Origin: an uncultured Acidimicrobiales bacterium
GTDB taxonomy: Bacteria; Actinomycetota; Acidimicrobiia; Acidimicrobiales; CATQHL01
Direction of reading: 5' to 3'
Length of the DNA stretch: 64,000 bases
Assembly (NCBI GenBank): GCA_958295925.1
Contig: CATQHL010000001.1
Location: 216,676 to 280,675, forward strand
The notes beneath the pieces were generated by a model. That model was not told where the DNA came from, searched no databases, and saw nothing but the letters and a program-made list of their open reading frames with translations. Shown here piece after piece: positions 26,945 to 56,699 of the stretch. Every line of letters starts with the position of its first letter. The first letter of the stretch is position 1. The translations under genes were made by a program, and so were the position numbers.

Positions 26945-29900
26945 CTACTCGAACTCGGAGGCGGTGGCTTGTAGGTTGTTGGCGTTTTCCGAGACGGTTC
27001 TGCGGGTGGATTCTTTGTAGCCGGCGGGGTTGCTTCCCCTTATCTCCAGTGACAGCTCGACGTCTTCCCCTAGGTGACTGGCAATGCTTTCGAGGATGGC
27101 GCCCAACTCCTTGACGCCTCGGACGGGGTCGAGGTTGAACTGGGCGTAGAACCTTTTCGGCTTCGGGGGGGCTGACGGACGCTGTGGCGGCTTGATGTCG
27201 TCGTCGTCAGTGGGCGACAAGAGGCCAACTGCCGCGTGTTCCGAGCCCGGCTCTGTCGGTTGATCTGGGGCGAACCGTTTCGCTTCCTCCCGCACCACGT
27301 CCCCCCGCACCACGAATCCGCTGATCTCGGCCTGGGCGTGCTGGCCGGAGCGCACGCCAGCCCAGGTCTTCCGCTGATCGTTCCAGGCTTCGGCGTACGC
27401 AAACGTCTCCTCTTTCCAAGCCAGCGAGGCGGGGCCGTCGCCCACCGCCTTCATCAGGACATCGAGGGAAGCCAGGCGGGGCATGTAAGGGAAGCGTGCG
27501 TAGATCTCCCACAGCGACCCGACTTTCACATCGCCCCGCTCCGACCACAACCCGTAGCGGTCCAGGTCCATCTTTATCCGAATCCCGCTGTAGGAAGCGA
27601 TTAGCTTCTCATCGCTCTCCAGTTTCCTGCTCGCACGGGCGGCCAGCGAAGCCTCATCCCCGCTCGTCGACAAGCTAACTGTCTGCCATTCAATCTCGGA
27701 GGTGCCTGCCTCACCCTTGGGTGTAAGCACCAGCCTGAACGTCTCCGTAATCTGGCTGTCGACCTTGTCGAAGGCTTCATCAAACTTGGTCTCGGCCTGC
27801 TTGCGCTGCTGGGCGGTCAGGTTCAGCGTCTCGGTCTCGCCGACAATGGACTTCCACGCCAAGTAGGACTTTGCCGCCTCCCGCAGCTCTTCCAGCCGAT
27901 TCGCCGCCGCCGTCAGGAACACCAGCATGTTGCGGTTCACCCGCGGCCCCGCTTCGCGCTGAGCCAATATCCTCCCCGCAAGCTCCACTGCGGGGGAGTT
28001 CGCATCGCCGCTTGAGTGCGTCACCTGAGGCGTCAGCACCACCAGCCGAACTCCGTCGTCGTCGTCGGGAACATCGCCCGGCCCTTCGGCGAACACCTGA
28101 AACGCAGCGAACGCCCCGTTCTTCCCCCGCCCGGACTGCTTGCCGATCCGTTGCCGCACCTCCTCGTCGGCGTCGACGGTTTGAAAGCCCTCCTTCCGGT
28201 CTGTCGCCAAGCGGGTGACGCTGGGCCGCAGCGAATACCAGTAAGAGGCGCCGTCGACGTAAAGGTATGTGGCGTCGCTCGAGAGGCGTCTAAGGGCGTC
28301 AGTGAACTGACCGGGCGGCTCGCCTGGCTGGACGCATCCAAGCACCACCCGTTTGAGATCGAGGCCTCGCCCCCAGGCGCCGCCCGTCCCCCCGCCCCCA
28401 GGCGCAGAGCCCATGTAGACGGTGCGGGCAACCCGCCGGGCGGCGGAATAACGCCCGAAGTAGGTGCTCGCGCTGTCCATGCGCAGCGGCAGGGAGTTCT
28501 CGCCGTCGACATCACTCTTGATGACCGGATCCCAGCCCTCCTCCAGATATTTCTTCATCTCGCTGACCAGCACGCCTGAATCCATCGGCAGGTTGGCGGG
28601 CATGATCAGCAGGGACTGGTCGCCCCTCATCCACAACTCGGAGATTGCCAGGGCCATCAGACGCAGGACGCCGCGTGTGCGCTGGAACTTCTCAAGCGTC
28701 GACCAGTCGCTGAATAGGCGATCAAAAAGCTCGGGGTGGATTGGGTAGCACGACTTCAACCGGCGCCGGTATTCCGCCTCCTTGACTTCTCTGGGAAAGT
28801 CGGACGCACGGTCGCCGTACAACTTGCTGAACGCCAATATCACGTTGTCGCGCTGCCGCGCCCTGTCCGCAGGAATCTCGTCGAATAGGCGCCGCCGGAC
28901 TATCTCGAAGGACTCCTCGGGCGAGGCCGCCTGCCACTGCATTGCGTTGCGGGCGATGACGTTCCTCAGGCGTTCCAAGGCAGTCTGGCCCTGCTTGCCG
29001 CCAACCTCGATGTCGGAGGCAGGCACGGCGATCAGCACAACAACGTTCTGGGCCGCGGCGGCCGCCTCTGTGAGCGCCTGGGCGAACGTGAACTGCGTGT
29101 CAAAGTCGCCTCCGGCGGGACGCTTACGATCGGCGCCCGCCTCAGGAAGCTGACGGGCGTAGGCCACCCACTCGTCAATCAGCACAACAGCAGGGCCGAA
29201 TCGGCTGAACAGTGTCCGAAGGGCGTCGCCCGGATTGGTTGCGGACTCATCGGCGACGCGGACGATCTCGTAGCCCTCCCTGCCTCCGAGTTGGAAAGCG
29301 ATTTGCCCCCAGAGCGTGTGCAGGCGTATGTCGTCGGGAAGCGGCTCATCGGCGGCAGTCTTGTTGGCTGGATTGGCGGGCTCTATTTTGTGACCCACCA
29401 GCACGGCCCTGGCGATATTCTCCGGCAGAGTCAGACTCTTCCCAGCGAGCAGTTCCCCCACTCCTGCCAACTCGCTGGGCGGCACGCCGGACGCGAGGTG
29501 ATAGAGCGCGATCATGCTGTGCGTCTTGCCTCCGCCGAAGTTGGTCTGAAGCTGGATTACCGGTTCCCCGCCTCCGCCTGAGAGCCGCTGGGCTGCGCCA
29601 ACCAGCAACTCCTCCAGGCCCTGGGTCAGGTAGGTGCGGGCGAAGAACGCTCGAGGGTCGCCGTATTCATCCTCGCTCCGCCCTGCGGCGACTTCCTGCA
29701 GGTCGGCTGCGAACTCGGCCTGGTTGAAGCGGCCAGACTGCACGTCCGTGTGCGGGGTGATGATGTCGCGCCACGGCTTCAGATTTCCTTGTGGCACGCC
29801 CTCGGTGGGCCTAGCGGCTGTCTTGCGGCGCTCGTTGTGCACCTCCTGCTCAAAGACCCTGCGCATCAACTCGCGGCGAAGGTCGCGTATCTGCTTTTGC

Positions 29901-30268
29901 TGCCCGACGTTGCCGAAGGCGTCAAGCAGGCGCTCCATGGAGTCAAGGGCGCGGCTTGTGTCGTCGCTGGTGAACTGCTTCTGATGCGCCCAGCTGTTGC
30001 GAACCGTCGCCACTTCGAACACAAGCGCACGCACCGCCGGAGGGAAGCCGTGGCCGAACACCTCGTTCCACGTGGATTTGATGGCGTTGAGAAGGAACGA
30101 CACGTCGCTGGTGTTGGGCTCACGATCGGGGTTGCGCTGCAGACGGTTGACGGTCTTCAGCCAGCCACCCCCGTAGAACCCCTGCCACGTCTCGGCGCAC
30201 TTGGGCTCTAACCCGTCTCGCAGCAGGCCGAGCGCCCTTGAGACCCGTTCGTTGTTGGTCATTGCCAT
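26945..30268 (-). CDS. DUF499 (COG1483) AAA-type ATPase with Swt1-HEPN-like N-terminus
   Basis: 1107 residues. Residues 5-115 resemble a Swt1-type HEPN domain (NSWAHQKQFTSDDTSRALD), found in RNA- and defence-related proteins. An AAA-like ATPase follows, with Walker A in TNFGGGKTHSM near residue 240 and a Walker B-like VVLIDEWVAYAR. This is COG1483/DUF499, repeatedly found with COG1743 methylases and SNF2-like helicases. It is the last gene of the helicase-methylase-ATPase locus, 140 bp after methylase copy 1. I infer that it supplies the motor or effector step shared by all methylase copies. The start at 30268 has GAAGGGA upstream. Confidence 0.87.
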   Translation of the reverse strand: MAMTNNERVSRALGLLRDGLEPKCAETWQGFYGGGWLKTVNRLQRNPDREPNTSDVSFLLNAIKSTWNEVFGHGFPPAVRALVFEVATVRNSWAHQKQFTSDDTSRALDSMERLLDAFGNVGQQKQIRDLRRELMRRVFEQEVHNERRKTAARPTEGVPQGNLKPWRDIITPHTDVQSGRFNQAEFAADLQEVAAGRSEDEYGDPRAFFARTYLTQGLEELLVGAAQRLSGGGGEPVIQLQTNFGGGKTHSMIALYHLASGVPPSELAGVGELLAGKSLTLPENIARAVLVGHKIEPANPANKTAADEPLPDDIRLHTLWGQIAFQLGGREGYEIVRVADESATNPGDALRTLFSRFGPAVVLIDEWVAYARQLPEAGADRKRPAGGDFDTQFTFAQALTEAAAAAQNVVVLIAVPASDIEVGGKQGQTALERLRNVIARNAMQWQAASPEESFEIVRRRLFDEIPADRARQRDNVILAFSKLYGDRASDFPREVKEAEYRRRLKSCYPIHPELFDRLFSDWSTLEKFQRTRGVLRLMALAISELWMRGDQSLLIMPANLPMDSGVLVSEMKKYLEEGWDPVIKSDVDGENSLPLRMDSASTYFGRYSAARRVARTVYMGSAPGGGGTGGAWGRGLDLKRVVLGCVQPGEPPGQFTDALRRLSSDATYLYVDGASYWYSLRPSVTRLATDRKEGFQTVDADEEVRQRIGKQSGRGKNGAFAAFQVFAEGPGDVPDDDDGVRLVVLTPQVTHSSGDANSPAVELAGRILAQREAGPRVNRNMLVFLTAAANRLEELREAAKSYLAWKSIVGETETLNLTAQQRKQAETKFDEAFDKVDSQITETFRLVLTPKGEAGTSEIEWQTVSLSTSGDEASLAARASRKLESDEKLIASYSGIRIKMDLDRYGLWSERGDVKVGSLWEIYARFPYMPRLASLDVLMKAVGDGPASLAWKEETFAYAEAWNDQRKTWAGVRSGQHAQAEISGFVVRGDVVREEAKRFAPDQPTEPGSEHAAVGLLSPTDDDDIKPPQRPSAPPKPKRFYAQFNLDPVRGVKELGAILESIASHLGEDVELSLEIRGSNPAGYKESTRRTVSENANNLQATASEFE

Positions 30269-30408
30269 TGCTTAGTCCCTTCGCTGTCAGTTGCTGAGGC
30301 GGCGTGTGCTGTTATAGGAGCCTTGTTTTGTCTGGTTGTTGTCATCGCTCTTTGAAGATAAATGTTATTGTTGCTTCTTTCTTGCATTTCTAGTTTTAAT
30401 GAGTATAT

Positions 30409-33177
30409 CTAGTTGTTAATGAGTTTAGGAGACTCCACTTTCGGTGCGGATGCCCGCAGCATCGGCCACGCCGATATGAGGCCGTTGTAGACACGGGCCT
30501 CCTCAGCCCACCGCTTGTCACTCGCAATCTTATGCAGCAGGTATGACAACTGTCGGGCGCTGTCGCCGACACCCCCCAGGCGCGCCAGCAGCCTTGCCGC
30601 CCCCGACTCCGACTGCTCCAACCGAGCGGCGAGGTGCTGAAGCGCCTCCCAGGCGACCAGCCTGGAGTCGCTGGCTGGATCCCAGTCTGGGTCAAGCTCG
30701 CCGCGGCGAAAGAGCCGGAACTTGCCACCCGACGACTCCCCCACGCCAGCCCTAACCACCCCTTCGACGGCGGTGCCCTTAGCCCGGGCAATAGAATCCG
30801 CCTCGCCGAACGGGCCGATCTCGAAACCATGCTGTGCGTACCAAGCAAGAGCAAATCGAGTTTCGGCGTCGAGCTCAGACTCCTCCCCGTAGAGGACGTC
30901 GTCGAGCACCTCGTTAATGATGGCCAGAGCGTCGCTGACAGGCATCGTCGAGCCATCAGCCTCCACCACCTTGGCGTACCGAGAAAACACCTTTATGCCT
31001 GGCCCGATGGTGGACTGCGACAAGTCAACAGGGGCAATGTTGCCGGACTGCAGAACCCTGATCGCCTCGGGGAGTTCGCTGCGAAGAGCGGCTACAAAGT
31101 CGCTTCGGGAGACGAGCACAGCCGATGTCGAGCGAGGGCGGCAAGCCAGGACAATTGAGGATGCTAGGGCGTTGGAGCCTAACGAACGTGCACGGGTTGC
31201 TCGTTCGGTCCTAAGCGGCCAAGTGGCTGTGACTTGAAGCCCCGCTGAAACGACTGCTTGAAGAAAAGTGTCCCAGCCAGTCGAGCGCAACCCACCGTCT
31301 TCTGTTGTCTCTGTTGCTTTATAGGCATAATAAATTGTGGCAGGAAGTTCAGCACATTGTCCCTCTACAACTTCACCCATGAACTCGGCCATTCCCGACT
31401 CAAAGTAATCATCCGCTTCTGCCTTATTCTTGTGTCGACTCGGGTCGGAAATGAGTTCATCAATCTTTGGTGTGAGCAGCGTTGAACACTCGCTTGGCCA
31501 GATCTCGGAAAGATTCCGCTTTAGCCAAACATAGAAGAAATTCGAGATGTCGGAGTACCCAATGTTGTTGTAGTAAGGAGGGTCTGTTGAAATTACTAGA
31601 TTGGAATTATCTCCCACGAATGCTCTAGCATCCATCTGACGAACAATGCCTTCCCTTGTCGCAGGTAGCGATTCGACAGACTTGGCGACACGATTCACCA
31701 TCGACATCCAGTTTGCGGTTGAAGATGAAAACGGATTGGCTTCGCAATAGTCCCAAACCATGGTGACGACTTGACGCGGGAACGTATTCCTCATTTTTTC
31801 GCCAGCCTTGTCCCACGTGCAAAGTCTCGACCAATAGTCGGCGCACTTATCTACCGCAAACGCCAAGTAAGTCACAACTGCGTCTGCATAAGCAACCGCC
31901 CCCGCTCCGCCGTCTCTTAGACGCTCCTCTTTTGCAACTAATCCAGCATCAATTCCATCTGCCAGCACTTTTGCATGTATATCATCGAGGAGATCTGAAA
32001 ACGTTGTTAACGCCACTAACTGCCGCTCGGTAAACAATTGCCACCATTCCTCTAGTCCGTAGGCCTGAACCGTGAAACCCAGACCCTTGCCTTTCGGAGG
32101 CAGGGCTTCAACAGGTTTCCAAACACTCTCTGACAATTTGACTGCTTCTTGGCATGCAGTGACGTCAGCAGATGACCCTTCACAGTACTGGCGTCCTCTA
32201 CTTCCTTCTGCAGCTACTGCCATAAGGTGTGCACCCATTCCTCCTGCATGCCATTCAGCTTTTGTGTAATCCAATGGGATAGCAGCACCAGTAGCAATGC
32301 AAGTCCCGTTCCCCCTATTGACAGTACGCTCGAAAGTGGGGTCGCCACCCTCCCTCACCCGGTAAGAAATAGTTTTAGCTTCCCTGTCAATTATCGGCTC
32401 AACCCACACCTTGGACTTGCCAGCCTTGTTGCGAAGAACCCACGACGCCACCAGCGGCACGTGCCTGCCCCACGCAGGGTCAGGCGAACGCACCGTCCTG
32501 CCCCACATCCACGCAATCGGGGTCAACCTCTTCCCATTGGGGCCGACGGCGTCGGGATAGAGGTGGCCGATCCTGCGTTCAGCCTCTTCCCGCATCCAAG
32601 CGCCGTAAGCCCTGATATCGGCGGCCAAACCCTGCGCCCTGCCCCACGCACCTAGTTCAGTCTTCGCATCGGGATGCACCGGCGGGCAGCCCGCGAAACG
32701 CGGCGGAATCTCCAGCATCGACTTGTTGATGAGCACCGCCACCGGATTCAAATCACCAGCAAGTACCCGCAGTCCCAACCGCTGAGCCTCCAACGGGATA
32801 GACCCGCCACCCGCAAATGGGTCAAGCACCGCAGGCGGATTACCGTCAAAGCAGTGCGCTACCTCAGCATGAGCCTCAGCCAGGACATCCGAGTTGTTGC
32901 TGTTCTCCCAAACCACTAACCGCTCCAAAATTCTGAAAAGGCGCTCACGCTCAGCGGCCTGAGCCTCCTCTGTCGGAAATTGATCGGGATTCGCCGAAGG
33001 GTCGTCCACCAGCGAAGCCCACAGCACCGCCCTGCATGCGGCCAACGGTTTACGCGACCACCAGAGATGCAGCGTTGAAGGGTGCCCGTAGAAGATCCCT
33101 TTCTCTCGAGAGGACGCCTTGTTAATGGCATCCAGGGGTAAAGCCACTTCTATCAACTTCGGCTTGTATTCAGTCAT
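30409..33177 (-). CDS. DUF1156 (COG1743) adenine-specific DNA methylase, copy 1 - intact
   Basis: 922 residues. The N-terminal DUF1156 block is KPKLIEVALPLDAINKASSR with GHPSTLHLWWSRKPL. Motif I (SAM loop) is VLDPFAGGGSIPLEAQRLG at about 118-136. A long central insert replaces the usual zinc ribbon; only scattered Cys such as NGTCIATG remain. Motif IV is STDPPYYNN near residue 530, and a C-terminal domain (about 750-920) is shared by all copies. The SAM loop is encoded without a homopolymer, so this copy is not phase-variable there. It is nearly identical to copy 2 across the centre, indicating recent duplication or gene conversion. The DUF499 gene follows. Confidence 0.9.
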   Translation of the reverse strand: MTEYKPKLIEVALPLDAINKASSREKGIFYGHPSTLHLWWSRKPLAACRAVLWASLVDDPSANPDQFPTEEAQAAERERLFRILERLVVWENSNNSDVLAEAHAEVAHCFDGNPPAVLDPFAGGGSIPLEAQRLGLRVLAGDLNPVAVLINKSMLEIPPRFAGCPPVHPDAKTELGAWGRAQGLAADIRAYGAWMREEAERRIGHLYPDAVGPNGKRLTPIAWMWGRTVRSPDPAWGRHVPLVASWVLRNKAGKSKVWVEPIIDREAKTISYRVREGGDPTFERTVNRGNGTCIATGAAIPLDYTKAEWHAGGMGAHLMAVAAEGSRGRQYCEGSSADVTACQEAVKLSESVWKPVEALPPKGKGLGFTVQAYGLEEWWQLFTERQLVALTTFSDLLDDIHAKVLADGIDAGLVAKEERLRDGGAGAVAYADAVVTYLAFAVDKCADYWSRLCTWDKAGEKMRNTFPRQVVTMVWDYCEANPFSSSTANWMSMVNRVAKSVESLPATREGIVRQMDARAFVGDNSNLVISTDPPYYNNIGYSDISNFFYVWLKRNLSEIWPSECSTLLTPKIDELISDPSRHKNKAEADDYFESGMAEFMGEVVEGQCAELPATIYYAYKATETTEDGGLRSTGWDTFLQAVVSAGLQVTATWPLRTERATRARSLGSNALASSIVLACRPRSTSAVLVSRSDFVAALRSELPEAIRVLQSGNIAPVDLSQSTIGPGIKVFSRYAKVVEADGSTMPVSDALAIINEVLDDVLYGEESELDAETRFALAWYAQHGFEIGPFGEADSIARAKGTAVEGVVRAGVGESSGGKFRLFRRGELDPDWDPASDSRLVAWEALQHLAARLEQSESGAARLLARLGGVGDSARQLSYLLHKIASDKRWAEEARVYNGLISAWPMLRASAPKVESPKLINN

Positions 33178-33270
33178 CTAACCCCTCGGCGCGCTTCGTT
33201 GTCCAATCGTTCTTACCTGTTTACCCCTACTCGTGAACTTCTGCCCCAAATCAGCACCCAGAGTCTGCAC

Positions 33271-33331: not shown

Positions 33332-33336
33332 GTTTT

Positions 33337-36171
33337 TTACAACTCCAACTGTTCTCCCACAGGTCGCATTGCTTGCAGCATTGGCCACGCCGATATGAGG
33401 CCGTTGTAGACAAGGGCCTCCTCGGCCCACCGCTTGTCGCTCGCAATCTTATGCAGCAGGTATGACAACTGCCGGGCGCTGTCGCCGACACCCCCCAGGC
33501 GCGCCAGCAGCCCGGCGGCCTCTGACTCCGACCGCTCCAACCTCGCCGCCAAGTGCTGGAGCGCCTCCCAGGCGACCAGCCTGGAGTCGTCGGCCGGATC
33601 CCAACTCTCGTCAAGCTCACCGCGGCGATAGAGCCGGAACTTGCCGCCCGACGACTCCCCCACGCCAGCCTTCACCACCCCGTCGACTGCGGTGCCCTTA
33701 GCCCGGGCAATGGAATCCGCTTCGCCGAACGGGCCAGTCTCGAAGCCATGCTGTGCGTACCAAGCAGTAGCGAAGCGAGTCTCGGCGTCGAGTTCAGACT
33801 CCTCCCCGTAGAGGACATCGTCGAGCACCTCATTGATAATGGCCAGGGCGTCGCTCACCGGCATAGACGAGCCGTCTGCCTCCACCACCTTGGCGTAACG
33901 GGAGAACACCTTGATGCCCGGCCCGATAGTGGACTGCGGCAAGTCCACCGGGGCGATGATGCTGGATTCTTCAGGCACCTCCGCTTCGTCCATCTGGGGC
34001 TGCGACTGCGACAAGTCCGCAGAGGCGATGTATTCGGTCTGCATGAGCCTGATCGCCTGCGGGAGTTCGCTGCGAAGCGCTGCGATGAACTCGCTTCGAG
34101 TGGCCAGCACAGCCGATGTCGGGCGAGGACGGCAAGCGAGGACAATTGAGGAGGCGAGGGCGTTGGAACTCAACGAACGCGCACGGGTTGCGCGCTCGGT
34201 CCTCAACGGCCACGTGGCAGTGACTTGAAGCCCCGCTGAAACCACTGCTTGAAGAAAAGTGTCCCAGCCAGTCGAGCGCAACCCACCGTCTTCTGTTGTC
34301 TCTGTTGCTTTATAGGCATAATAAATAGTGGCAGGCAGTTCACTACATTGTCCCTCGACAACTTCACCCATGAACTCGGCCATTCCCGACTCAAAGTAAT
34401 CATCCGCTTCTGCCTTACTCTTATGTCGACTCGGGTCGGAAATGAGTTCATCAATCTTTGGTGTGAGAAGCGTTGAACACTCGTCTGGCCAGATCTCAGA
34501 AAGATTTCGCCTTAGCCAAACATAGAAGAAATTCGAGATGTCGGAGTACCCAATGTTGTTGTAGTAAGGAGGGTCAGTTGAAATTACCATATTGGAATTA
34601 TCCCGCACGAATACTCTAGCATCCATCTGACGAACAATGCCTTCCCTTGCCGCAGGTAGCGATTCGACAGACTTGGCAACTCGATCCACCATCGACATCC
34701 AGTTTGCGGTTGAAGATGAAAACGGATTGGCTTCGCAATAATCCCAAACCATGGTGACGACTTGACGCGGAAAGGTGTGCCCCATTGTTTCGCCAGCCTT
34801 GTCCCACGTGCAAAGTCTCGACCAGTAATCGGCGCACTTATCTACCGCAAACGCCAAGTAAGTCACTACTGCGTCCGCATAGGCAACCGCGCCCGCTCCG
34901 CCGTCTCTTAAACGCTCCCCTGTTTCAACTAAACCTGCATCAATTCCATCTGTCAGAACCTTTGCATGTATATCACCGAGGAGATCGGAAAACGTTGTTA
35001 ACGCCACTAGTTGCCGCTCGGTGAACAATTGCCACCATTCCTCTAGTCCGTAGGCCTGCACAGTAAAGCCTAGACCCTTACCTTTCGGAGGCAGGGCTTC
35101 AACAGGTTTCCAAACACTCTCTGCTAATTTGACTGCTTCTTGGCATGCAGTGACATCAGCAGATGACCCTTCACAGTATTGGCGTCCCCTATTACCTTCA
35201 GCAGCTACTGCCATAAGGTGTGCACCCATACCTCCTGCACGCCATTCTGCTTTTGTGTAATCCAATGGGATCGCAGCACCAGTAGCTATGCAAGTCCCAT
35301 TACCCCTCTTGACTGTGCGCTCGAAAGAGGGTTCGCCACCCCCCCTCACCCGGTAAGAAATAGTCTTGGCTTCCCTGTCAATTACAGGCTCAACCCATAC
35401 TTTGGGCTTGCCGGCCTTGCTGCGAAGAACCCACGACGCCACTAGCGGCACGTGCCCGCCCCACGCAGGGTCGGGAGAACGCACCGTCCTGGCCCAAAGC
35501 CATGCAATGGGAGTCAACTTCTTCCCATTGGGGGCGACGGCGTCGGGATAGAGGTGGCCGATTCTGCGCTCGGCCTCATCCCGCATCCAAGCGCCGTACG
35601 CCCTAATATCGGCGGCCAAACCCTGCGCCCTGCCCCACGCACCGAGTTCGGTCTTCGCATCAGGATGAATCGGCGAGCAGCCAGAGAAACGCGGCGGAAT
35701 CTCTACCATCGCCTTGTTGATGAGCACAGCCACCGGATTCAAATCTCCCGCCATCGTCTTTAAACCCAGCCGCTGAGCTTCTAAGGGGATGGACCCCCCC
35801 CCCCCCGCGAACGGATCAAGAACCACAGGAGGCTCACCCTCAAAGCAACGTTCAATCTCAGCTTGAGCCTCAGCCAGCACGTCCGTGTTGTTGCTGTTCT
35901 CCCACATCACCAACCGCTTCAAAATCCTGAACAGTCGCCCACGCTCAGCAGCCTGAGTCTCCTCAGTAGGAAAGCGATCGGTATGCGCCGACGGGTCGTC
36001 CACCAGCGACGCCCACAGCACAGCTCGACAAGCCGCCAATGGCTTTCGCGACCACCATAGATGCAGCGTCGAAGGGTGCCCATAGAAAATCCCCTTCTCT
36101 CGAGAGGACGCCTTGTTGATCGCGCCTAGCGGCAAAGCCACCTCGATGAGCTTCGGCCTGTACTCAGTCAC
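33337..36171 (-). CDS. DUF1156 adenine methylase, copy 2 - intact, G tract in SAM loop
   Basis: About 944 residues. I place the start at the GTG at 36171 because TEYRPKLIEVALPL then aligns with copy 1; a TTG at 36180 is an alternative. Motif IV is STDPPYYNN. The SAM loop reads DPFAGGGGSIP, with one more Gly than other copies, because it is encoded by 13 consecutive G (35794-35806). Loss or gain of bases not divisible by three would truncate the protein at about residue 125. A further insert of about 27 residues near plus-strand 33955-34040 contains two related peptides (IASADLSQS, IAPVDLPQS). It is followed by copy 1. Confidence 0.9.
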   Translation of the reverse strand: MTEYRPKLIEVALPLGAINKASSREKGIFYGHPSTLHLWWSRKPLAACRAVLWASLVDDPSAHTDRFPTEETQAAERGRLFRILKRLVMWENSNNTDVLAEAQAEIERCFEGEPPVVLDPFAGGGGSIPLEAQRLGLKTMAGDLNPVAVLINKAMVEIPPRFSGCSPIHPDAKTELGAWGRAQGLAADIRAYGAWMRDEAERRIGHLYPDAVAPNGKKLTPIAWLWARTVRSPDPAWGGHVPLVASWVLRSKAGKPKVWVEPVIDREAKTISYRVRGGGEPSFERTVKRGNGTCIATGAAIPLDYTKAEWRAGGMGAHLMAVAAEGNRGRQYCEGSSADVTACQEAVKLAESVWKPVEALPPKGKGLGFTVQAYGLEEWWQLFTERQLVALTTFSDLLGDIHAKVLTDGIDAGLVETGERLRDGGAGAVAYADAVVTYLAFAVDKCADYWSRLCTWDKAGETMGHTFPRQVVTMVWDYCEANPFSSSTANWMSMVDRVAKSVESLPAAREGIVRQMDARVFVRDNSNMVISTDPPYYNNIGYSDISNFFYVWLRRNLSEIWPDECSTLLTPKIDELISDPSRHKSKAEADDYFESGMAEFMGEVVEGQCSELPATIYYAYKATETTEDGGLRSTGWDTFLQAVVSAGLQVTATWPLRTERATRARSLSSNALASSIVLACRPRPTSAVLATRSEFIAALRSELPQAIRLMQTEYIASADLSQSQPQMDEAEVPEESSIIAPVDLPQSTIGPGIKVFSRYAKVVEADGSSMPVSDALAIINEVLDDVLYGEESELDAETRFATAWYAQHGFETGPFGEADSIARAKGTAVDGVVKAGVGESSGGKFRLYRRGELDESWDPADDSRLVAWEALQHLAARLERSESEAAGLLARLGGVGDSARQLSYLLHKIASDKRWAEEALVYNGLISAWPMLQAMRPVGEQLEL
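35794..35806 (-). repeat. 13-G tract in SAM-binding loop of methylase copy 2 (in frame)
   Basis: Thirteen C on the plus strand encode Ala-Gly-Gly-Gly-Gly of motif I. Thirteen and ten bases keep the frame; eleven or twelve break it. The matching site in copy 1 uses mixed glycine codons. Confidence 0.9.
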
Positions 36172-36210
36172 GGACAGCAAAGGCTAACAATGGGGGCGGA
36201 ATGCAATGCA

Positions 36211-37446: not shown

Positions 37447-37466
37447 CTCAGATTCCTGTTTTCTTT

Positions 37467-37512
37467 GTTGCGATAGATTGATAATCTTATCAAAAACAGT
37501 AACTATCGCAAC
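37467..37512. promoter_or_regulatory. Nested dyad operator upstream of XRE-ImmA gene
   Basis: An outer perfect inverted repeat GTTGCGATAG (37467-37476) / CTATCGCAAC (37503-37512) encloses a second perfect palindrome TTGATAA-TC-TTATCAA (37478-37493). A third imperfect half-site (GGCAATAG) lies near 37519-37528. The block is 21 bp upstream of the XRE start and AT-rich, as expected for a repressor-controlled promoter. Confidence 0.72.
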
Positions 37513-37620
37513 ACATTTTGGCAATAGTTTTGAATCTTTGAAATCGTCGACTCAACTCTGCCGAATGCTCAACCAGGCCTCACGATTGGGCATCTGGCAG
37601 CACAATTGGATCGTTTCCTG

Positions 37621-37672
37621 GAACTCGTTCTAAGAGTTCGTCCTAATCGTCCGTCGTTGGACAGGATTAGGA
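37621..37672. terminator. Two hairpins at the 3' end of methylase copy 3
   Basis: TCCTAATC-GTCC (37641-37652) pairs with GGAC-AG-GATTAGGA (37659-37672), a 12-bp stem with a 2-nt bulge and 6-nt loop that contains the stop codon of copy 3. A second hairpin is GAACTC (37621-37626) / GAGTTC (37634-37639). There is no clear T-run. It could end the upstream transcript before the XRE promoter. Confidence 0.55.
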
Positions 37673-40527: not shown

Positions 40528-40585
40528 GGGGCTACGCTGAGTCGCTCCAAACGAGCCACATGGGGTAGCGCAGATTGCTGCTAGC
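40528..40585 (-). repeat. Array spacer element, after methylase copy 4 (divergent)
   Basis: Divergent member of the spacer family between copies 4 and 3. It keeps GCGCAGATTGCTGCTAGCAG, including the CTGCTAGCAG palindrome, but the left half has drifted. Confidence 0.65.
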
Positions 40586-47133: not shown

Positions 47134-47193
47134 CGGGACTCCATTGAAGTAACTCCTGCCGAGCAACCAACCTGTGCGCAGATTGCTGCTAGC
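47134..47193 (-). repeat. Array spacer element, after methylase copy 6
   Basis: Well-conserved spacer-family member. The TGCTGCTAGC end includes the stop codon of copy 6 (47189-47191), so the repeat extends into coding sequence. Confidence 0.8.
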
Positions 47194-48997: not shown

Positions 48998-49074
48998 ACC
49001 CCGCCTACTTTGCTCACGGATATAATCCCCTGGAATCGCCGCGCCAGTGGCTAAGCAGGTGCCATTACATTTCC

Positions 49075-49992
49075 TTATAGTGGGCTCAGGGCGGATGCTC
49101 TTAGCCGCCGCCCCCCCCCCCCCCCGGATTTCGTAACGACGCTGTACCTGATGGTCTGCGTGGTGGTGTCGACTATTGGCTCAACCCAAACTTCAGGCTT
49201 GTTCTTCTTCGCCTTGCGAAGCGTCCACGACCTGACCAGCGGCACATGTCCGCCCCACGCAGGATCGGGTGACATGACAGTCCTCGCCCAAATCCACGCA
49301 ATCGGAGTCAGATTCTCACCTTCTAGGCCGATTGCGTCTGGATACAAGTGCCCGATTCTGCGCCTTGCCTCTTCCCGCATCCAGGTTCCGTACGTACTGA
49401 CATCTGCCGCCAGGCCTTGCGCCCCTGCCCACGTGACGAGGTCTTTTCTTGCTGCGGGATGCACCGGCGTGCAGCCTGCGAAACGCTGCGGAATCTCCAG
49501 CACCGCCCTGTTGATGAGAACCGCCACCGGATTCAAATCACCCGCTAGCGCCCGCAGGCCAAGCCGCTGAGCCTCCAACGGGATCGCTCCCCTTCCAGCG
49601 AAAGGATCAAGCACCGCCGGCAACTCACCCTCCAAGCAGCGCTCTATCTCAGCTTGAGCCTCAGATAGAACATCGGGGTCGTCGCTGTTCTCCCAGATCA
49701 CGAGGCGTTCCAAGATTCTGAACAGGCGCTCACGCTCGGCGGCTTGAGCCTCCTCGCTCGGGAAGCGGTCGGTATGCGCTGATGGGTCGTCCACCAGCGA
49801 AGCCCAAAGAACAGCCCGGCAAGCCACCAACGGGCGAGGAGCCCACCAAAGATGCAGCGTCGACGGATGCCCCAGACGTGGCTTCGATTTCTCCCTCGCC
49901 GATGCCTTGTTGATTGCATCCAGCGGTAGCGCCACCTCAATCAGCTTCGGCTTGTGCACAGTCGCCTTATTTTGCAGCACACGCTGTCCCAT
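49075..49992 (-). CDS. DUF1156 methylase copy 6, N-terminal part (phase-off)
   Basis: 305 residues. VHKPKLIEVALPLDAINKA and the SAM loop LDPFAGRGAIPLEAQRLG, where one Gly is replaced by Arg, so motif I departs from the other copies. Homology ends at SVVTKSGGGGG, after which 11 residues are out of frame. The ATG at 49992 is followed by an in-frame GTG at 49959 that would align with the other copies. As sequenced, the product lacks motif IV. Confidence 0.82.
   Translation of the reverse strand: MGQRVLQNKATVHKPKLIEVALPLDAINKASAREKSKPRLGHPSTLHLWWAPRPLVACRAVLWASLVDDPSAHTDRFPSEEAQAAERERLFRILERLVIWENSDDPDVLSEAQAEIERCLEGELPAVLDPFAGRGAIPLEAQRLGLRALAGDLNPVAVLINRAVLEIPQRFAGCTPVHPAARKDLVTWAGAQGLAADVSTYGTWMREEARRRIGHLYPDAIGLEGENLTPIAWIWARTVMSPDPAWGGHVPLVRSWTLRKAKKNKPEVWVEPIVDTTTQTIRYSVVTKSGGGGGRRLRASALSPL
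49111..49125 (-). repeat. 15-G tract in methylase copy 6 (out of frame)
   Basis: Fifteen C on the plus strand. The two halves of copy 6 join in frame if the tract is 13 or 16. The position matches the copy 5 tract, between the VVT strand and the NGTC block. Confidence 0.9.
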
Positions 49993-50050: not shown

Positions 50051-50109
50051 GGGACTTCGCTGAAGCAACTCCTGCCGAGCAACCAACCTGTGCGCAGATT
50101 GCTGCTAGC
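50051..50109 (-). repeat. Array spacer element, after methylase copy 7
   Basis: Almost identical to the element after copy 6, including the following TAGATCCTGGTAACTTCTGC stretch, which is the 3' end of the coding region. As at copy 6 it contains the methylase stop codon. Confidence 0.82.
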
Positions 50110-52876
50110 TAGATCCTGGTAACTTCTGCTGTTCGCCTTCATGTCGCCGTTCCTTAAGAACAGTCCACGCCGAGATGAGGCCGTTGTAGACGAGAGCCTC
50201 CTCGGCCCACTCATTGTCGCTGGCGATTTTGTGGAGGAGGTAGGCCAACCCGCGGGCGCGGTCGCCCACGTCACCTAGGCGAGCCAGCAGACGTGCGGCC
50301 TGCGACTCCGATCGCTCCAGCCGAGCGACGAGGTGCTGGAGCGACTCCCAGGCGACCAACCTGGGATCGCCAGCAGGATCCCAGTCGGAGTCAAGCTCAC
50401 CGCGACGGTAGAGACGGAACTTGCCACCTGACGACTCCCCCACACCAGCCCTCACCACCCCTTCGACGGCGGTGCCTTTAGCCCGAGCGATGGAATCCGC
50501 ATCGCCGAACGGGCCAGTCTCGAAACCATGCTGTGCGTACCAAGCCAGAGCGAAACGAGTCTCCGCGTCGAGATCGGACTCCTCCCCGTAGAGGACGTCG
50601 TCGAGCACCTGATTGATCATCGCTAGGGCGTCGCTTACCGGCATAGAAGAGCCATCCGCCTCGACGACTTTGGCGTAACGGGAGAACACACTGATGCCCG
50701 GGCCGATAGTGGACTGAGGCAAGTCAACAGGGGCAATGTTGCCGGACTGCAGAACCCTTATCGCATCGGGGAGTTCGCTGCGAAGAGCGGCTATGAACTC
50801 GCTGCGGGAGGCTAGCGCGGCCGACTTTGGGCGAGGACGGCAGGCTAGGACAATCGAGGATGCAAGAGCGTTCGCGCCTATGGAGCGTGGGCGGTTTGAG
50901 AGTTCGGTGCGTAGCGGCCAGGTGGCAGTTACCTCAAGCCCAGCCGTAACGACGGCTTGGAGAAAAGTATCCCAGCCAGTTGAAATCACCCTGCCTTCCT
51001 CAGTCTCTTCTGTGGCCTTGTATGCGTAATAAAGCGTGGCCGGAACGCCAGTGAGATGCGATGTTGTCATGGCGTTCATGAACTCAGCCATACCAGTTTC
51101 AAAGTGCTTATTTGCCTCCTGCCTGCCTTTGTGTCTTCCAGGATCGGCGATCATCTCTTCACCTTTGGGAGTAAGAAGTGTTGAGCACTCACTTGGCCAG
51201 ACATCTGCTAAGTTCTGACGCAGCCACACGTAGAAAAAATCGGAAAGATTCGCGTAGCCGATGTTGTCGTAATAGGGAGGGTCAGTCGAGACAACAACCC
51301 CTCTTTCATCACGCATTCTGGATCGAGCGTCGCCTTGAAACACCTCGGCCACGCCGACTGCAGGAAAATGCTCAATCGCCTTGCCTACCCAATTTACCAT
51401 CGACATCCAGTTTCCCGTCGAAGATGAGAAAGGGTTGGCTTCAGCAAAATCCCAACTCATTGTCATGACTGGAAGCATGAAAGTACTTCGAATTGTCTCG
51501 CGGGAACTGCCCCAAGTACAGATACTAGAGCCGTAATCAGCACACTTGTCAACCACAAGAGCCAAGTAAGTCACGACCGCATCCGCGTAGGCAGTTGCGC
51601 CCGCTCCATCGTATTGCAAGCGTGTATCATAGTCTGTCAAGCCAGCAGACTTTGCGTCTTCGAGCACCTGTTCCCGGACTTCACTCAACAAGTCGGAGAA
51701 CGTAGTAAGAACCACCAACTGACGGTCGGTGAACATCTGCCACCACTCCTCATAGCCGTAGTTCTGCACACTGAACCCCAAGCCTTTCCCCCTCGGAGGG
51801 AGTCTGACGATCGGCCTCCACACAGCATTCGCAAGTTTGTCAGCTTTTTGGCTGGACTTGATATCCGCAATTGACGGCTCGCAGTATTGCCGTCTTCTAT
51901 TTCCTTCGGCAACGACAGCCATTAGATGCGCCCCTAGGCGCCCTTCTTGTCCCTCGGCCCTTATATATTTTACTGGGATCGCTGACCCTGTGGCTATGCA
52001 AGTCCCATTACCCCGATTCACTGTGCGCTCGAATGTGGGCTCGCCACCTTCCCGCACTTTGTAGGAAATTGTTCGGGATTCCCTTGCAATTATTGGCTCA
52101 ACCCACACCTTGGGCTTACCGGCTCTGTTGCGAAGAACCCACGAAGAAACCAGCGGCACATGCCCGCCCCACGCAGGGTCGGGAGAACGCACCGTCCTGC
52201 CCCAAAGCCACGCAATCGGAGTCAAACTCTCCCCATCGGGGCCGACAGCGTCGGGGTAGAGGTGGCCGATCCTGCGCTCGGCCACATCCCGCATCCATGC
52301 ACCGTAAGCCCTCACATCGGCCGCCAAGCCTTGCGCCCCGACCCAAGCGCCAAGCCCGATCCTCGCGTCGGGATGGACCGGCGGACAACCGTTGAATCGT
52401 GGCGGAATCTCCACCATCGCCTTGTTGATGAGAACCGCAACCGGATTCAAGTCGCTCGCAATCGCCGTGAGTCCCAGCCGCTGCGACTCTAACGGAATAG
52501 CCCCCCCCCCCGCGAACGGATCCAGCACTGCAGGCGGATCTCCGTCAAAACAACGCTTAATCTCAGCTTGAGCCTCAGCTAGCACATCTGGATTATTGCT
52601 GTTCTCCCACTTAACCAACCGCTCCAAGATTCTGAACAGTCGTTCTCGCTCAGCCCCCTGAGTCTTTTTCGTCGGGAACCTGTCTGGATGCGCCGAGGGG
52701 TCGTCAACCAGTGACGCCCACAGCACAGCCCGGCACGCGGCCAGCGGTTTACGTGACCACCAAAGATGCAGCGTCGAAGGGTGTCCGTGGCGAATCGACT
52801 TCTCCCTCGCCGACGCCTTGTTGATGGCATCCAGCGGTAGTGCCACCTCGATGAGTTTCGGCTTGTAACCGCTCAT
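50105..52876 (-). CDS. DUF1156 adenine methylase, copy 7 - intact, G tract in SAM loop
   Basis: 923 residues, first methylase after the helicase. MSGYKPKLIEVALPLDAIN opens the DUF1156 block. The SAM loop DPFAGGGAIPLESQRLG is encoded through 11 consecutive G (52501-52511), in frame. Motif IV is STDPPYYDN near residue 530; the shared C-terminal domain is complete. With copies 1 and 2 it is one of three copies that are both full length and canonical. The last 60 bp are nearly identical to copy 6 although the centres differ, which suggests recombination at the 3' ends. Confidence 0.9.
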   Translation of the reverse strand: MSGYKPKLIEVALPLDAINKASAREKSIRHGHPSTLHLWWSRKPLAACRAVLWASLVDDPSAHPDRFPTKKTQGAERERLFRILERLVKWENSNNPDVLAEAQAEIKRCFDGDPPAVLDPFAGGGAIPLESQRLGLTAIASDLNPVAVLINKAMVEIPPRFNGCPPVHPDARIGLGAWVGAQGLAADVRAYGAWMRDVAERRIGHLYPDAVGPDGESLTPIAWLWGRTVRSPDPAWGGHVPLVSSWVLRNRAGKPKVWVEPIIARESRTISYKVREGGEPTFERTVNRGNGTCIATGSAIPVKYIRAEGQEGRLGAHLMAVVAEGNRRRQYCEPSIADIKSSQKADKLANAVWRPIVRLPPRGKGLGFSVQNYGYEEWWQMFTDRQLVVLTTFSDLLSEVREQVLEDAKSAGLTDYDTRLQYDGAGATAYADAVVTYLALVVDKCADYGSSICTWGSSRETIRSTFMLPVMTMSWDFAEANPFSSSTGNWMSMVNWVGKAIEHFPAVGVAEVFQGDARSRMRDERGVVVSTDPPYYDNIGYANLSDFFYVWLRQNLADVWPSECSTLLTPKGEEMIADPGRHKGRQEANKHFETGMAEFMNAMTTSHLTGVPATLYYAYKATEETEEGRVISTGWDTFLQAVVTAGLEVTATWPLRTELSNRPRSIGANALASSIVLACRPRPKSAALASRSEFIAALRSELPDAIRVLQSGNIAPVDLPQSTIGPGISVFSRYAKVVEADGSSMPVSDALAMINQVLDDVLYGEESDLDAETRFALAWYAQHGFETGPFGDADSIARAKGTAVEGVVRAGVGESSGGKFRLYRRGELDSDWDPAGDPRLVAWESLQHLVARLERSESQAARLLARLGDVGDRARGLAYLLHKIASDNEWAEEALVYNGLISAWTVLKERRHEGEQQKLPGSS
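52501..52511 (-). repeat. 11-G tract in SAM-binding loop of methylase copy 7 (in frame)
   Basis: Eleven C on the plus strand encode Ala-Gly-Gly-Gly-Ala of motif I. It is the same codons as the copy 2 tract. A one-base slip would end the protein shortly after motif I. Confidence 0.9.
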
Positions 52877-53087: not shown

Positions 53088-56000
53088 TCATCTTGGGTCG
53101 ACTGCGGACTGAAGCAGTTCTTCAACGTTGAGCGTCAGGCGGGTTTGAGCGAAGTGCATGGTCACGTCTTGGAACGGCTCCACCAAGTAGCGGACAACCG
53201 GTGCGGTTTCGGGGGATTCCGGCACGGAGACCACCGCCAGCCTCCAGCGTTCGGGGTTGGACTTGGCCTTTTGAACCTGCTGAGCGCTCACGTGAATCTC
53301 TGTGGTCTGCGGAAGGTGGCCCTTGACCTCAATGAAATAGTGGTCTCCTGTGGCGGGGTCTATCGAAAGCACGTCGTAGCCAGGATTGCTGTGCTCCTGC
53401 GCCTCAGGCTCACGCCCCAGCAGGCGCTCCGATTCCAGAACCGCCGCAACAGCCCTGCGGTCGGTGTCTTCCGCGACCTCCGGATCGGGCTTTACCGGCA
53501 TCTCCTTACCGTCCTCCACCGCCGTGATCTCGTCAAGCCGCCCCTGCGGCACCACAAGCGCCGCACCCACGATGTTGGGTGGAGTGTTGTGGAGGTTGCG
53601 CTCCTGATCGAGCTCCAGGCGTCGGCGCGCAAGACGCTCCACCAATTCCTCGGCCCTCTTTGAAGCCTGGGCGGAGTTGACAGACGGCGTCTTTCCCTGC
53701 CTCTCCTGCTCCTTCAGGTCGATGGCCCGATCATCCCAGTACCGGATTTCCCAGATCAACCGCTCCTGCACAGCCGAGCGCACCTTCGCGACCCTGGCTT
53801 CAGTAATCTCCTCTATCTCGCGGAAATGCTCGCCTGCCATGTTCTCAATGGCCCAGTCCCTCGCCGTCGTCTCCGCCGTGCTGTCCACCCAGTCGAGATT
53901 CAAGTGGCGCTCCAGGGCCGCCCGCTGTTCCTCGTCGGCGGGTAAGTAGCCGATGTACGGCTCAGGGCCGGGGTCGCTCACGATGCCCTGCTCGTCGATC
54001 TCCGCGTACTGGAAGCGTCTTGAGACAGCCTGATTGGGCCTGCTGCCCTGACGGCCGTCGGTTATGACGTGGTCGAGATAAACCAACAGTCGAGGGTTGG
54101 TCGAAAACCGGTCCGGGTCTATCAGGATCGCCCCCTGCTCCAGGGTATCTTCGTGATCGGCCAGCACCTTCCCAACAACCGCCGACAGCAGGGCGGTGCC
54201 CGGCGAGATGAGCACGGCACGCTCGGACTTCCCGCCTCCCTTCCGGCTGCCGTCTGCGCCGGCGCGCAGTTTGAGGACACCTTCATTCTCAAATTGAGGT
54301 TTGACGAACGCCTTGTTGAATGTGACACGGCTGTAACGCTCGTGAACCGGGCCCAGCGTCTCGTCGGCGGACGACCGCACAGAAGCCGGGACCCTGGTGA
54401 CCTCGTAGCGCCCCTTCTCCCTTGCGGCGAGTCGCCCGCCGTAGTGCTTGAGGGCTGCGGAGAAGAACGCCTCCACGAACCACGGCTGAAGCTTGCGGGC
54501 CCTCGAGCGCTCCATGAGGTTGCGAATCGCCTCGTTGCTGGTCTCCTCGGAAAGGCCTCGCACCAGCGCACGCTCATCAAGCACCTTCCTCATCTGAGCG
54601 CCGATGTCGTCATCTATCACCTGGTTCATGTACTCGAAGTGGGCAGGGTCGGAGTCCTCCTGGATGGAGCGCATCAGAAGCTCACGAAGCGACGTGTTGA
54701 TGTGCAAGTCGCCCAGCACGTCGTAGACCTGCTCGCCGTAGACATTCCTCTGCTCCTCGATTTTCCTGAAGAGTTTCGTGAACACCTTGCCCTCACGGGT
54801 TTCGTGGGCGACCATGTTCCACAGATGGCATGGGAGGGCTTGGCCGATGCGGTGTATGCGCCCGAAGCGCTGCTCTATGCGGTTCGGGTTCCAGGGCAGG
54901 TCGTAGTTCACCATCATGTTCGCCACCTGCAGGTTCACGCCCTCCCCTGCAGCGTCGGTTGCGACCAGAATCCTCACTGTCGGGTCGACCCTGAACATGT
55001 CCTGGATGCGCCGTCGATCGTGGCGCTTGACGCCCCCATGAATCACCGCTACGGCCTCAGGTCGGCCAAGTTCGGCCTTGACCCTCTCGGCAACGTAGTC
55101 GAGGGTGTCCTTGTACTCGGTGAAGATGATCAGCTTGCGATCCGCCGTGCGGCTTCCCATCTGGTTGGTGCGCAGCAGGTCGCGCAGCTGAATCCACTTC
55201 GTGTCGGTGCCGCTTCTGCGGACTTCCTCAGCCAACCCCACCAGACCCTTCAGCTCCTCAACCTCCACTTCAATCTCTTCGGCGGTGGCTGACGCAGTGG
55301 CGGCGTCGATGGTCCTGTCTTCGAGTTCCTCGAGGAACTCGTCGTCGTAGTCGTCGTAGTCGAAATCCTTTAGGTCCTGGGGCTTGATGCCCCTGGGAAG
55401 TTCGAAAAGGGGGATCTGCTCGCCGCTCTTAGCAAGTTCCCGCAGCGTCTTGGCCTGTTCGCTCAGGCGTTCGCTGCGACGGCGCAGCGAGTGGTAAATG
55501 GCGGCCGGCGAAGAGGCCAGCCGCCTTTGAAGGCTGACGAGGGCAAAGCCGACGATGATTCCCCTCCCCCGCTGACCTTCGTCCTGCATCTGCTGCGCCC
55601 TGTTCATTCCTGTGCGGACATAGCCCGTCACGGCCTCGTAAAGCCCCTTCTCTCTCTCCGACAAGTCGAAGTTAAGTGACTCGGCGGTGCGCTTCGGGAA
55701 TAGCGGCTTGCCCTTGAACGTGCGGAGATTCTCCTTGACGATGCGTCGCATTACATCGGAGGTGTCGGGCAGCGACGCCGACCTGTTGCCGTTGCCGCGG
55801 TGCGCTCCTGCAAATCTGTCGGGATCTACGAGCGTCATGAACGCCAGGAAGTCCTCGTTGCGTCCGTTGTGGGGGGTGGCCGTGAGCAGCAGCAGGTGCC
55901 GCGTCAGCTCACGCAGCATCTCGCCGAGCTTGAAGCGCCCCGTCTTGTTGATCTTTCGGCCGTACGGGCGCGCCGACATCTTGTGAGCCTCGTCAATTAT

Positions 56001-56699
56001 CACCAGATCCCAGTCCGCCACCTTGAGCTTGGCTTGAAGGTCTTCCGCCCTCGCAAGCTGATCGAGGCGGGCGACCAGCAGATGCTTTTCCAGGAAGGGG
56101 TTCCCCGCCCGCGATGCCTCAACTGCAGCTCTCGACATCAAGTCGAAGCTGAGGCTGAACTTGTCCCAGAGTTCATCCTGCCACTGCTCCACGAGGCTGC
56201 CCGGCGCCACGATGAGGCAGCGCGCCACGTCGCCGCGCAGCATGAGTTCGCGTATGAGCAGGCCGGCCATGATCGTCTTGCCTGCGCCCGGGTCGTCGGC
56301 GAGGACGAACCTCAGCGGCTTCTGGACTAGCAGGCGGTTGTAGACGGCGTCGATTTGGTGGGGGTAGGGTTCGATATTGGACGTGTCAACGGCTGCGAAC
56401 GGGTCGGAGAGGTGCGCCAAGCGCATCCGGCGAGCCTCAGACGCCAGCCTGAACATCTCCCCGTCTGCGTCGAAGCTCCAGCGACGCCTATGGGCAGTGA
56501 AGACGCCTGCGAGATCGTTGGCGGTGATAATGCGCTCCCCCAGCTGACCTTGAGAGGTGCGGTAGGTGAGCGTGGCTGAGCCGCGGCCGTGCCTGCTGAT
56601 GGCGACGACGGTCACGATCCCCGCCGAGCCCTCGCCGACGACGATGCCGGTGAGCCGCGTGCCTGCGGTGATGTCTGTGAACGTGAGGGGTTGTGTCAT
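53088..56699 (-). CDS. SNF2-like DEAH helicase with C-terminal DUF3883 domain
   Basis: 1203 residues. The superfamily 2 core has Walker A ADDPGAGKTIMAGLL (about residue 135), IIDEAHKM (about 235), LLTATPHNGR, and helicase C motifs ATDAAGEGVNLQ and RIEQRFGRIHRIGQ (about 615). An acidic FDYDDYDDEF linker lies between the lobes. The end (about 1095-1125, NPGYDVLSIDPATGDHYFIEVKG) is DUF3883, with an E-x-K pattern of the PD-(D/E)xK type, so nuclease activity is possible. This is the first gene of the locus; with DUF1156 methylases and DUF499 it makes the Hma-type set. I infer DNA translocation or cleavage of unmodified DNA. Confidence 0.9.
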   Translation of the reverse strand: MTQPLTFTDITAGTRLTGIVVGEGSAGIVTVVAISRHGRGSATLTYRTSQGQLGERIITANDLAGVFTAHRRRWSFDADGEMFRLASEARRMRLAHLSDPFAAVDTSNIEPYPHQIDAVYNRLLVQKPLRFVLADDPGAGKTIMAGLLIRELMLRGDVARCLIVAPGSLVEQWQDELWDKFSLSFDLMSRAAVEASRAGNPFLEKHLLVARLDQLARAEDLQAKLKVADWDLVIIDEAHKMSARPYGRKINKTGRFKLGEMLRELTRHLLLLTATPHNGRNEDFLAFMTLVDPDRFAGAHRGNGNRSASLPDTSDVMRRIVKENLRTFKGKPLFPKRTAESLNFDLSEREKGLYEAVTGYVRTGMNRAQQMQDEGQRGRGIIVGFALVSLQRRLASSPAAIYHSLRRRSERLSEQAKTLRELAKSGEQIPLFELPRGIKPQDLKDFDYDDYDDEFLEELEDRTIDAATASATAEEIEVEVEELKGLVGLAEEVRRSGTDTKWIQLRDLLRTNQMGSRTADRKLIIFTEYKDTLDYVAERVKAELGRPEAVAVIHGGVKRHDRRRIQDMFRVDPTVRILVATDAAGEGVNLQVANMMVNYDLPWNPNRIEQRFGRIHRIGQALPCHLWNMVAHETREGKVFTKLFRKIEEQRNVYGEQVYDVLGDLHINTSLRELLMRSIQEDSDPAHFEYMNQVIDDDIGAQMRKVLDERALVRGLSEETSNEAIRNLMERSRARKLQPWFVEAFFSAALKHYGGRLAAREKGRYEVTRVPASVRSSADETLGPVHERYSRVTFNKAFVKPQFENEGVLKLRAGADGSRKGGGKSERAVLISPGTALLSAVVGKVLADHEDTLEQGAILIDPDRFSTNPRLLVYLDHVITDGRQGSRPNQAVSRRFQYAEIDEQGIVSDPGPEPYIGYLPADEEQRAALERHLNLDWVDSTAETTARDWAIENMAGEHFREIEEITEARVAKVRSAVQERLIWEIRYWDDRAIDLKEQERQGKTPSVNSAQASKRAEELVERLARRRLELDQERNLHNTPPNIVGAALVVPQGRLDEITAVEDGKEMPVKPDPEVAEDTDRRAVAAVLESERLLGREPEAQEHSNPGYDVLSIDPATGDHYFIEVKGHLPQTTEIHVSAQQVQKAKSNPERWRLAVVSVPESPETAPVVRYLVEPFQDVTMHFAQTRLTLNVEELLQSAVDPR

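Follow-up and report, generated by a model that had tools for sequence, protein, structure and literature searches.

Hma systems (PADLOC, PMC8565338) combine a helicase (HmaA), a DUF1156 methylase (HmaB) and a DUF499 ATPase (HmaC), and correspond to the Type-1 DUF499-centred systems related to bacteriophage exclusion (BREX-related, BR) of PMC12839542. According to PMC12839542, the DUF499 ATPase bears an N-terminal HEPN domain in 1370 of 2446 taxa, and the helicase carries a C-terminal PD-(D/E)XK nuclease in 79% of members. Here we describe an Hma locus at positions 26945-56699, on the minus strand, of a 64,000-nucleotide stretch of DNA from an uncultured Acidimicrobiales bacterium (the window, i.e., the whole stretch analysed; C2:216676-280675 of a 3.20 Mb genome in three contigs, 93.9% complete). 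The locus shares with the described systems the gene order, the model matches and a HEPN domain fused to DUF499, but it differs from them in holding seven methylases, with 12 in the genome (one per locus in our survey), in the G runs within its methylase genes and in an M78/helix-turn-helix (HTH) gene inside the array. As judged from sequence comparisons, it is probably a phase-variable Hma system, in which several switchable specificity subunits, multiplied in this lineage, serve one restriction machine.

The Pgl system of Streptomyces coelicolor resembles this locus in having a G tract in a BREX-type methylase gene of an actinomycete, and the tract of pglX is held to cause Pgl phase variation (PMC4365076). 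The BrxX/PglX protein is described in PMC11842806 as binding the site and as required for defence and methylation. Pgl has one pglX with an 8-base tract, whereas here several paralogues carry runs of 9-16 bases at two sites, with no PglZ match.

HsdS proteins are not known to have a methylase domain, and Type III mod phasevarions generally have one gene per system. Type I restriction-modification systems with several hsdS genes are comparable to the present locus in that multiple specificity genes serve one restriction machine in a phase-variable manner, but in the systems surveyed in PMC7394358 the hsdS genes switch by recombination at inverted repeats, whereas here whole methylases would be toggled singly by slippage. 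Type III mod phasevarions, such as ModH5 of Helicobacter (PMC5700931), share with it a phase-variable N6-adenine methylase, but from a different enzyme family.

HmaB copy number in the locus, the genome and related genomes

The helicase, DUF1156 methylase and DUF499 ATPase genes lie together on a single strand, as in Hma or Type-1 BR loci, and PADLOC, Pfam and the coordinates confirm the order helicase, methylases, ATPase that a sequence-only reading of the window had proposed. Every gene has the same direction, with intergenic gaps of 30-565 bases across the array, and the PADLOC models scored 1260 bits for HmaA, 1048 bits for HmaB (copy G) and 919 bits for HmaC.

Seven HmaB copies, all on the minus strand, stand between HmaA and HmaC. 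Copies A (50105..52876, 923 amino acids (aa), DUF1156 5.3e-31), F (33337..36180, 947 aa) and G (30409..33177, 922 aa) are open with a standard motif IV, and copies D (40581..43469, 962 aa) and E (37667..40435, 922 aa) are open with an altered motif IV. Copies B and C are out of frame: B (47189..49992) is made of two open reading frames (ORFs), 49075-49992 (305 aa) and 47189-48997 (602 aa), and C (43695..46623) of two overlapping ones, 45493-46623 and 43695-45773. The seven methylases read head to tail from 52876 to 30409 are thus all present, but B and C are not single open frames, and the row is interrupted by a gene of another type (36211..37524, minus strand), which encodes an HTH and M78 metalloprotease-type, regulator-like protein (ImmA/IrrE-like, best PADLOC match RmrA, HEIGH motif). 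It is a possible regulator of the operon. A promoter scan found 6 promoters against 5.1 expected. The eighth methylase noticed at 63639 is also real: the window holds the C-terminal end of this copy, H8 (63639..64000, minus strand; full extent C2:280314-283378), and the gene continues past the window edge to C2:283378, with a frame change at a G16 run.

Genome-wide, 12 close HmaB were found, four more than the eight of the sequence-only reading: the seven of the array, H8, H9 (C2:293714-297049), H10 (C2:752799-755749), H11 (about C2:759459-762277) and H12 (C2:1514870-1517881). A distant further HmaB belongs to a separate DUF499 locus (C2:2334-2344 kb). The genome has one strong HmaA (1260 bits, all others at most 69 bits) and one strong HmaC (920 bits; a 280-bit match belongs to the separate DUF499 locus), in support of the Hma identity with a single helicase and a single ATPase that had been suggested.

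HmaA (53088..56699, minus strand, 1203 aa) is a Swi2/Snf2-type helicase with Pfam matches to Helicase_C, SNF2-rel_dom and, at its C-terminal end, NOV_C (1.3e-14), a domain that we take to be PD-(D/E)XK-like; a GYD...IEVK motif found there also appears PD-(D/E)XK-like as read by eye. HmaC (26945..30268, minus strand, 1107 aa) joins an N-terminal HEPN_Swt1 domain (4.7e-24) to a DUF499 AAA+ ATPase (1.1e-25), both by Pfam. The HEPN R-x4-H motif is present as RNSWAH, with R90, N91, W93, A94 and H95 invariant in a 12-sequence alignment. The best named HmaC relatives are 62-64% identical, mostly from Acidimicrobiia metagenome-assembled genomes. BREX proper was ruled out as the identity of the locus, since PglZ (PF08665) had no match in this 93.9% complete genome.

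Among relatives, one methylase per locus is the usual state, as had been expected. We surveyed HmaC loci with one genome per species, taking the best 80 of 577 loci. At least part of HmaA was also present in 45 of the 80, and exactly one HmaB was found in 44 of these 45 and a truncated one in the remaining locus. No second HmaB passed our block rule in any of the 80 loci, a rule that skips short pieces; below it were an extra N-terminal HmaB piece in L159 (q1-55) and an N-terminal piece on the opposite strand in L202, and L188 has one HmaB in two parts. These counts are to be read with the limits that many stretches run into a contig edge long before 10 kb, that short-read assemblies break at repeats and that a long array would push HmaA outside the stretch; a class survey scoring two candidates per genome was not used for copy numbers. 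Close to this lineage, however, loci with several HmaB are known: that of G003 reads HmaA, two HmaB, HmaC; in G002, a pair of HmaB precedes a single HmaC, and a second locus contains one HmaB with a stub; and the three HmaB of G281 are spread over three contigs. Seven is the highest count among the loci examined.

An assembly duplication was rejected as the source of the array: copies D, E, F and G share 64-75% overall identity with A, regional identity ranges from 30 to 95%, the seven copies lie on one 2.55 Mb contig and most of them sit on separate supported branches.

G runs and frame changes in the methylase genes

A G run of 9-16 bases on the coding strand was found in seven of the 12 hmaB genes, at two homologous sites. 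Site 1 is the motif-I glycine loop, with G11 in copy A (52501..52511, minus strand; DPFAGGGA), G13 in copy F (35794..35806, minus strand; AGGGGS) and G10 in H10. Site 2 is a loop near aa 280, with G15 in copy B (49111..49125) and G14 in copy C (45712..45725), both on the minus strand, G16 in H8 and G9 in H11. HmaA and HmaC of the locus hold no G or C run of at least 8 bases, and copies D, E and G no G run of this length.

Two of the seven run-bearing copies, A and F, are in frame across the run, and the other five (B, C, H8, H10 and H11) are out of frame; outside the window, H9 and H12 are open. In all five interrupted copies, two open frames overlap by 64-287 bases, the overlap holds the run and homology crosses from one frame to the other there. 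Of the 12 copies, those that are not single open frames change frame at a G run and nowhere else. Five of the hmaB genes therefore combine the long run and the frame change across it by which simple-repeat phase-variable genes are recognised. We also considered the split copies as natural two-subunit genes, and rejected this because the overlap falls at the G run in 5/5 cases and at two different places in the protein.

These runs are not due to chance, since the window contains 14 overlapping G11 matches against a mean of 0.13, and none of 100 shuffles reached 14. At site 1, copy A encodes the usual AGGGA, and its run thus arose by synonymous choice of codons. Nine other own copies use mixed codons at the motif-I glycines, and in the relatives' loci, some of which overlap, the longest G run among 49 matches at these glycines is 6. 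Motif I is DPFAGGG in A, C, D, E, G, H8, H11 and H12, with AGRG in B and AGSG in H9, and H10 is broken inside the motif. Copy F has one more glycine, and its four glycines, the sole case among 51 aligned HmaB, are what a 3-base slip would produce. Two of the seven putatively switchable copies carry further runs upstream: C15 and C14 (coding strand) upstream of the start of H8, and G15 upstream of H11.

We then looked at recurrence with a site-1 search pattern, GAYCCNTTYNSN + G9, and its reversed control. Two of 395 genomes of the class had matches, four in total and all in HmaB: three in this genome (A, F and H10) and one in G291. At the phylum level, only this genome matched among 396, and the reversed control gave 0. 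G291, which belongs to another family, has HmaA-HmaB-HmaC with a single HmaB, whose frame changes at a motif-I G11. In G310, (AG)19 lies just before motif I with a frame change, and the HmaB of G281 at L220 changes frame at a C13. Recurrence rests on these three clear genomes besides this one. Less sure cases, in which an assembly gap is involved, are a G16 at site 2 in G043 (L108) and long G runs before motif IV in G281 (L229); the same holds for two contigs of G043, one of which stops and the other starts within motif I. The G258 locus, with frame breaks across all three genes, was set aside as decayed or poorly assembled. None of the 80 surveyed HmaC loci showed a G or C run of at least 9 bases, and a few T9 and short-unit repeats were present among them. 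The G11 pattern had matches in six of eight same-family genomes and none in the other two, these counts being loose, as several match lengths are possible per run.

It could be argued that the G runs are real but fixed in length, and that B, C, H8, H10 and H11 are out of frame through assembly homopolymer errors, all five frame changes being at long G runs, where assemblers err. However, G runs of 9-16 bases slip often in bacteria, runs of this length are unusual in themselves, copy F has gained a whole glycine, the motif-I run recurs in another family and a third genome has (AG)19 and a frame change near the same place. We thus regard miscalled lengths as a very doubtful explanation.

G runs are also found in or beside other genes of this genome, namely leucine-rich repeat (LRR), fn3, two Type ISP restriction enzyme, GmrSD and DUF222-HNH genes and the second DUF499 locus; slippery runs therefore seem widespread in the genome, at genes of surface type and of defence. 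In about 371 kb, chosen around known runs and HmaB copies and with some overlap, 42 G runs of at least 9 bases were counted on either strand. The second DUF499 locus (L016 8151-18156, C2:2334-2344 kb) is Type-2 BR-like, with a PLD-type helicase, a DUF1156 methylase and a DUF499 ATPase; its ATPase gene contains a C11 (coding strand), and runs of 12 and 17 lie upstream of that gene. G runs also occur in two Type ISP restriction enzyme paralogues (L209 4766-14342, C2:2306-2316 kb), towards the C-terminal ends as well as immediately upstream. The starts of LRR genes at L205 and L206 (C2:1.63 and 1.68 Mb) contain or closely follow G runs, and these genes may encode phase-variable surface or secreted proteins. 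Between H8 and H9, two DUF222-HNH genes (L011 11960-18426, C2:284-290 kb) are closely followed, on the opposite strand, by G10-G12 runs.

Divergence and origin of the copies

Mean pairwise identity of HmaB, in windows of 30 residues, is high, 0.72-0.91, at aa 31-150 (0.76 within 91-120) and from aa 690 onwards, and drops at about aa 270-420 (down to 0.29), 450-540 and 570-630. The shared ends and differing centres described from the sequence alone are thus found across the set, apart from one pair, F and G, considered below. An AlphaFold model of copy A (pLDDT 87.9, pTM 0.85) can be read, by our own assignment, as a strand (117-119) preceding motif I (119-125), a further strand (138-142), a large insert extending to about 505, and motif IV after a strand at 527-531. 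In Type-1 BR methylases, the target-recognition insert follows core strand 2 according to PMC12839542, and the layout of the model fits this position. The role of the insert rests on that paper and on the variability, because nothing in a fold search with the HmaB model reached E 0.001 (best E 0.035); a sequence search of solved structures also returned no match.

A tree of the C-terminal part of HmaB (44 rows, 11 own copies tested) placed the 11 own copies on one side of a branch with support 86/48, and 10 of them, without the long-branch H9, with support 99/96. The copies therefore probably multiplied in this lineage and dispersed through the genome. The pairs on the tree are A and the distant H12, F and G, and D and E; copies B, C and H8 form a group.

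Motif IV is DPPY in A, F, G and H12 and in the C parts of B, C, H8 and H10, and DPPS in H9 (the H11 C part was left out). D and E have DLPY, against DPPY in 49 of 51 aligned HmaB; these two copies may therefore not methylate, and may be inactive or serve another purpose. A 21-base tandem repeat of 6.9 copies (43247..43390) lies near the start of copy D, where a change by whole units would keep the frame. Among the eight pairs for which dN/dS was computed, D-E had the highest ratio, about 0.5 (0.133/0.259); F-G (0.054/0.393), A-H12 (0.134/0.928) and B-H8 (C parts) span 0.14-0.23, and parts of other pairs show saturated dS.

These figures bear on the idea that the family is decaying after a burst of duplication, with most copies becoming pseudogenes or a store for gene conversion into intact copies. 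The five interrupted copies out of 12, the substituted motif IV and raised ratio of D and E, and HmaB stubs in relatives (L104 8385-8501, L119) would agree with it. Random decay would, however, scatter the lesions, and here copies are open or broken only at a G run, while the low ratios of the three other pairs also argue against it. Decay as the general state of the family thus appears improbable.

Proposed switchable specificity around one machine

Under the phase-variable reading that we prefer, each HmaB would have a conserved start and end and, inside its methyltransferase core, a variable module taken as the reader of the DNA target. Copies in use would dock on the common HmaC ATPase and HmaA helicase, each bringing its own motif; methylated sites would count as self, and unmethylated sites of the same motif would be attacked. 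Slippage of the G run in seven of the 12 hmaB genes would shift the frame and remove the specificity of that copy, mark and attack together, which would make the loss of a copy safe. Later slippage would restore the frame, so that clones would carry different subsets of copies and HmaC and HmaA would serve whichever are in frame. Copy G, which has no run, would be a constant member and copy F its switchable twin, if the extra glycine is tolerated; F and G probably share one specificity. Cellular switching of the runs, a specificity-setting role of HmaB, sharing of the machine and a function in phage defence are all inferred here.

A stronger form of this proposal sees a combinatorial immune repertoire, in which one machine is served by up to 12 paralogous recognition proteins, seven of them independently switched by poly-G slippage, so that up to 2^7 methylation/restriction states might coexist in a clonal population, and in which simple repeats have brought diversity more than once in Acidimicrobiia, at different loops and with different repeats. 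We consider this form to have an even chance of being right.

The idea of interchangeable specificity subunits for one machine, already put forward in the sequence-only reading, is in keeping with the variable insert, with the lack of any other strong HmaA or HmaC in the genome and with the BREX precedent, and we treat it as an inference. That reading made no mention of homopolymer runs, which turn a static set into a possibly switchable one.

The copies might instead be switchable and largely independent methylases that alter expression or mark the genome as a phasevarion, with one or a few working with HmaA and HmaC and the rest being orphans. Between HmaA and copies H9-H12 there are about 20 kb to 1.24 Mb, with no other strong HmaA or HmaC to serve them, and phase-variable Type I and III methylases do act as phasevarions (PMC7394358). 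On the other hand, seven copies stand between HmaA and HmaC, the aligned own HmaB, without the C part of H11, keep the C-terminal part of full Hma systems, and a lone HmaB may be inactive, since in BREX, according to PMC11842806, BrxX alone does not methylate. We therefore hold the phasevarion explanation to be unlikely.

Several observations weigh against a phase-variable system sharing one machine. Run lengths were compared between paralogues and between species only, and no change within one locus was seen; homopolymer lengths in assemblies can be wrong, and the on/off calls of the copies are therefore weak. Beyond this genome, the site-1 run occurs only in G291 among the 395 class genomes, and the G043 and G281:C10 cases are at assembly gaps. 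The C11 inside the ATPase gene of the second DUF499 locus means that runs are not restricted to methylases, and a 9-base run (G on the coding strand) lies just upstream of HmaC in the same-family genome G006 (L118 1492-1500). The branch that sets the 11 own copies apart is poorly supported by one measure (48), and the fold search mentioned above brought no match for HmaB. F and G are 93-95% identical in the centre (aa 310-700). The motif IV and dN/dS of D and E suggest some decay. Finally, H9-H12 are far from HmaA and HmaC and may act alone.

Other defence genes surround the array. Directly after HmaC is a Thoeris-like set with three TIR genes (23938-26732, minus strand), comprising a ThsB-type TIR, a SLOG LD_cluster3, a 397-aa TIR_2 (ThsB-like) and a short TIR protein. 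On the plus strand, an operon of the cyclic-oligonucleotide-based antiphage signalling system (CBASS) type (58440-62406) encodes a TIR-SAVED effector, a SMODS cyclase and an E1-E2 protein. The last of these is divided between two ORFs, 60862-61524 and 61630-62406, which match positions 2-222 and 262-513 of the profile; no G or C run of at least 8 bases lies at this split, and a 22-base tandem repeat (58011-58095) stands just upstream of the operon. A protein like the PADLOC Type IV methyl-directed restriction enzyme model is encoded at 62595-63551 (plus strand), adjoining the methylase-rich island.

The accessible part of PMC12839542 gave no account of phase variation, homopolymers or multiplied methylases in Hma, and a literature search covering mostly papers outside subscription, and PMC8565338 by its Hma passages, found no phase-variable or multi-methylase Hma system. 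The type of system is known; a multi-specificity phase-variable Hma/BR system would be the first found in the literature covered.

How BREX-like systems choose their targets and avoid self-attack is an open question that this locus touches. The presence of runs in the methylases, and not in HmaA or HmaC, suggests that loss of a methylase is tolerated and, therefore, that the methylase may also be the recognition subunit for attack. If the runs flip the copies on and off, a single population might mix many defence specificities.

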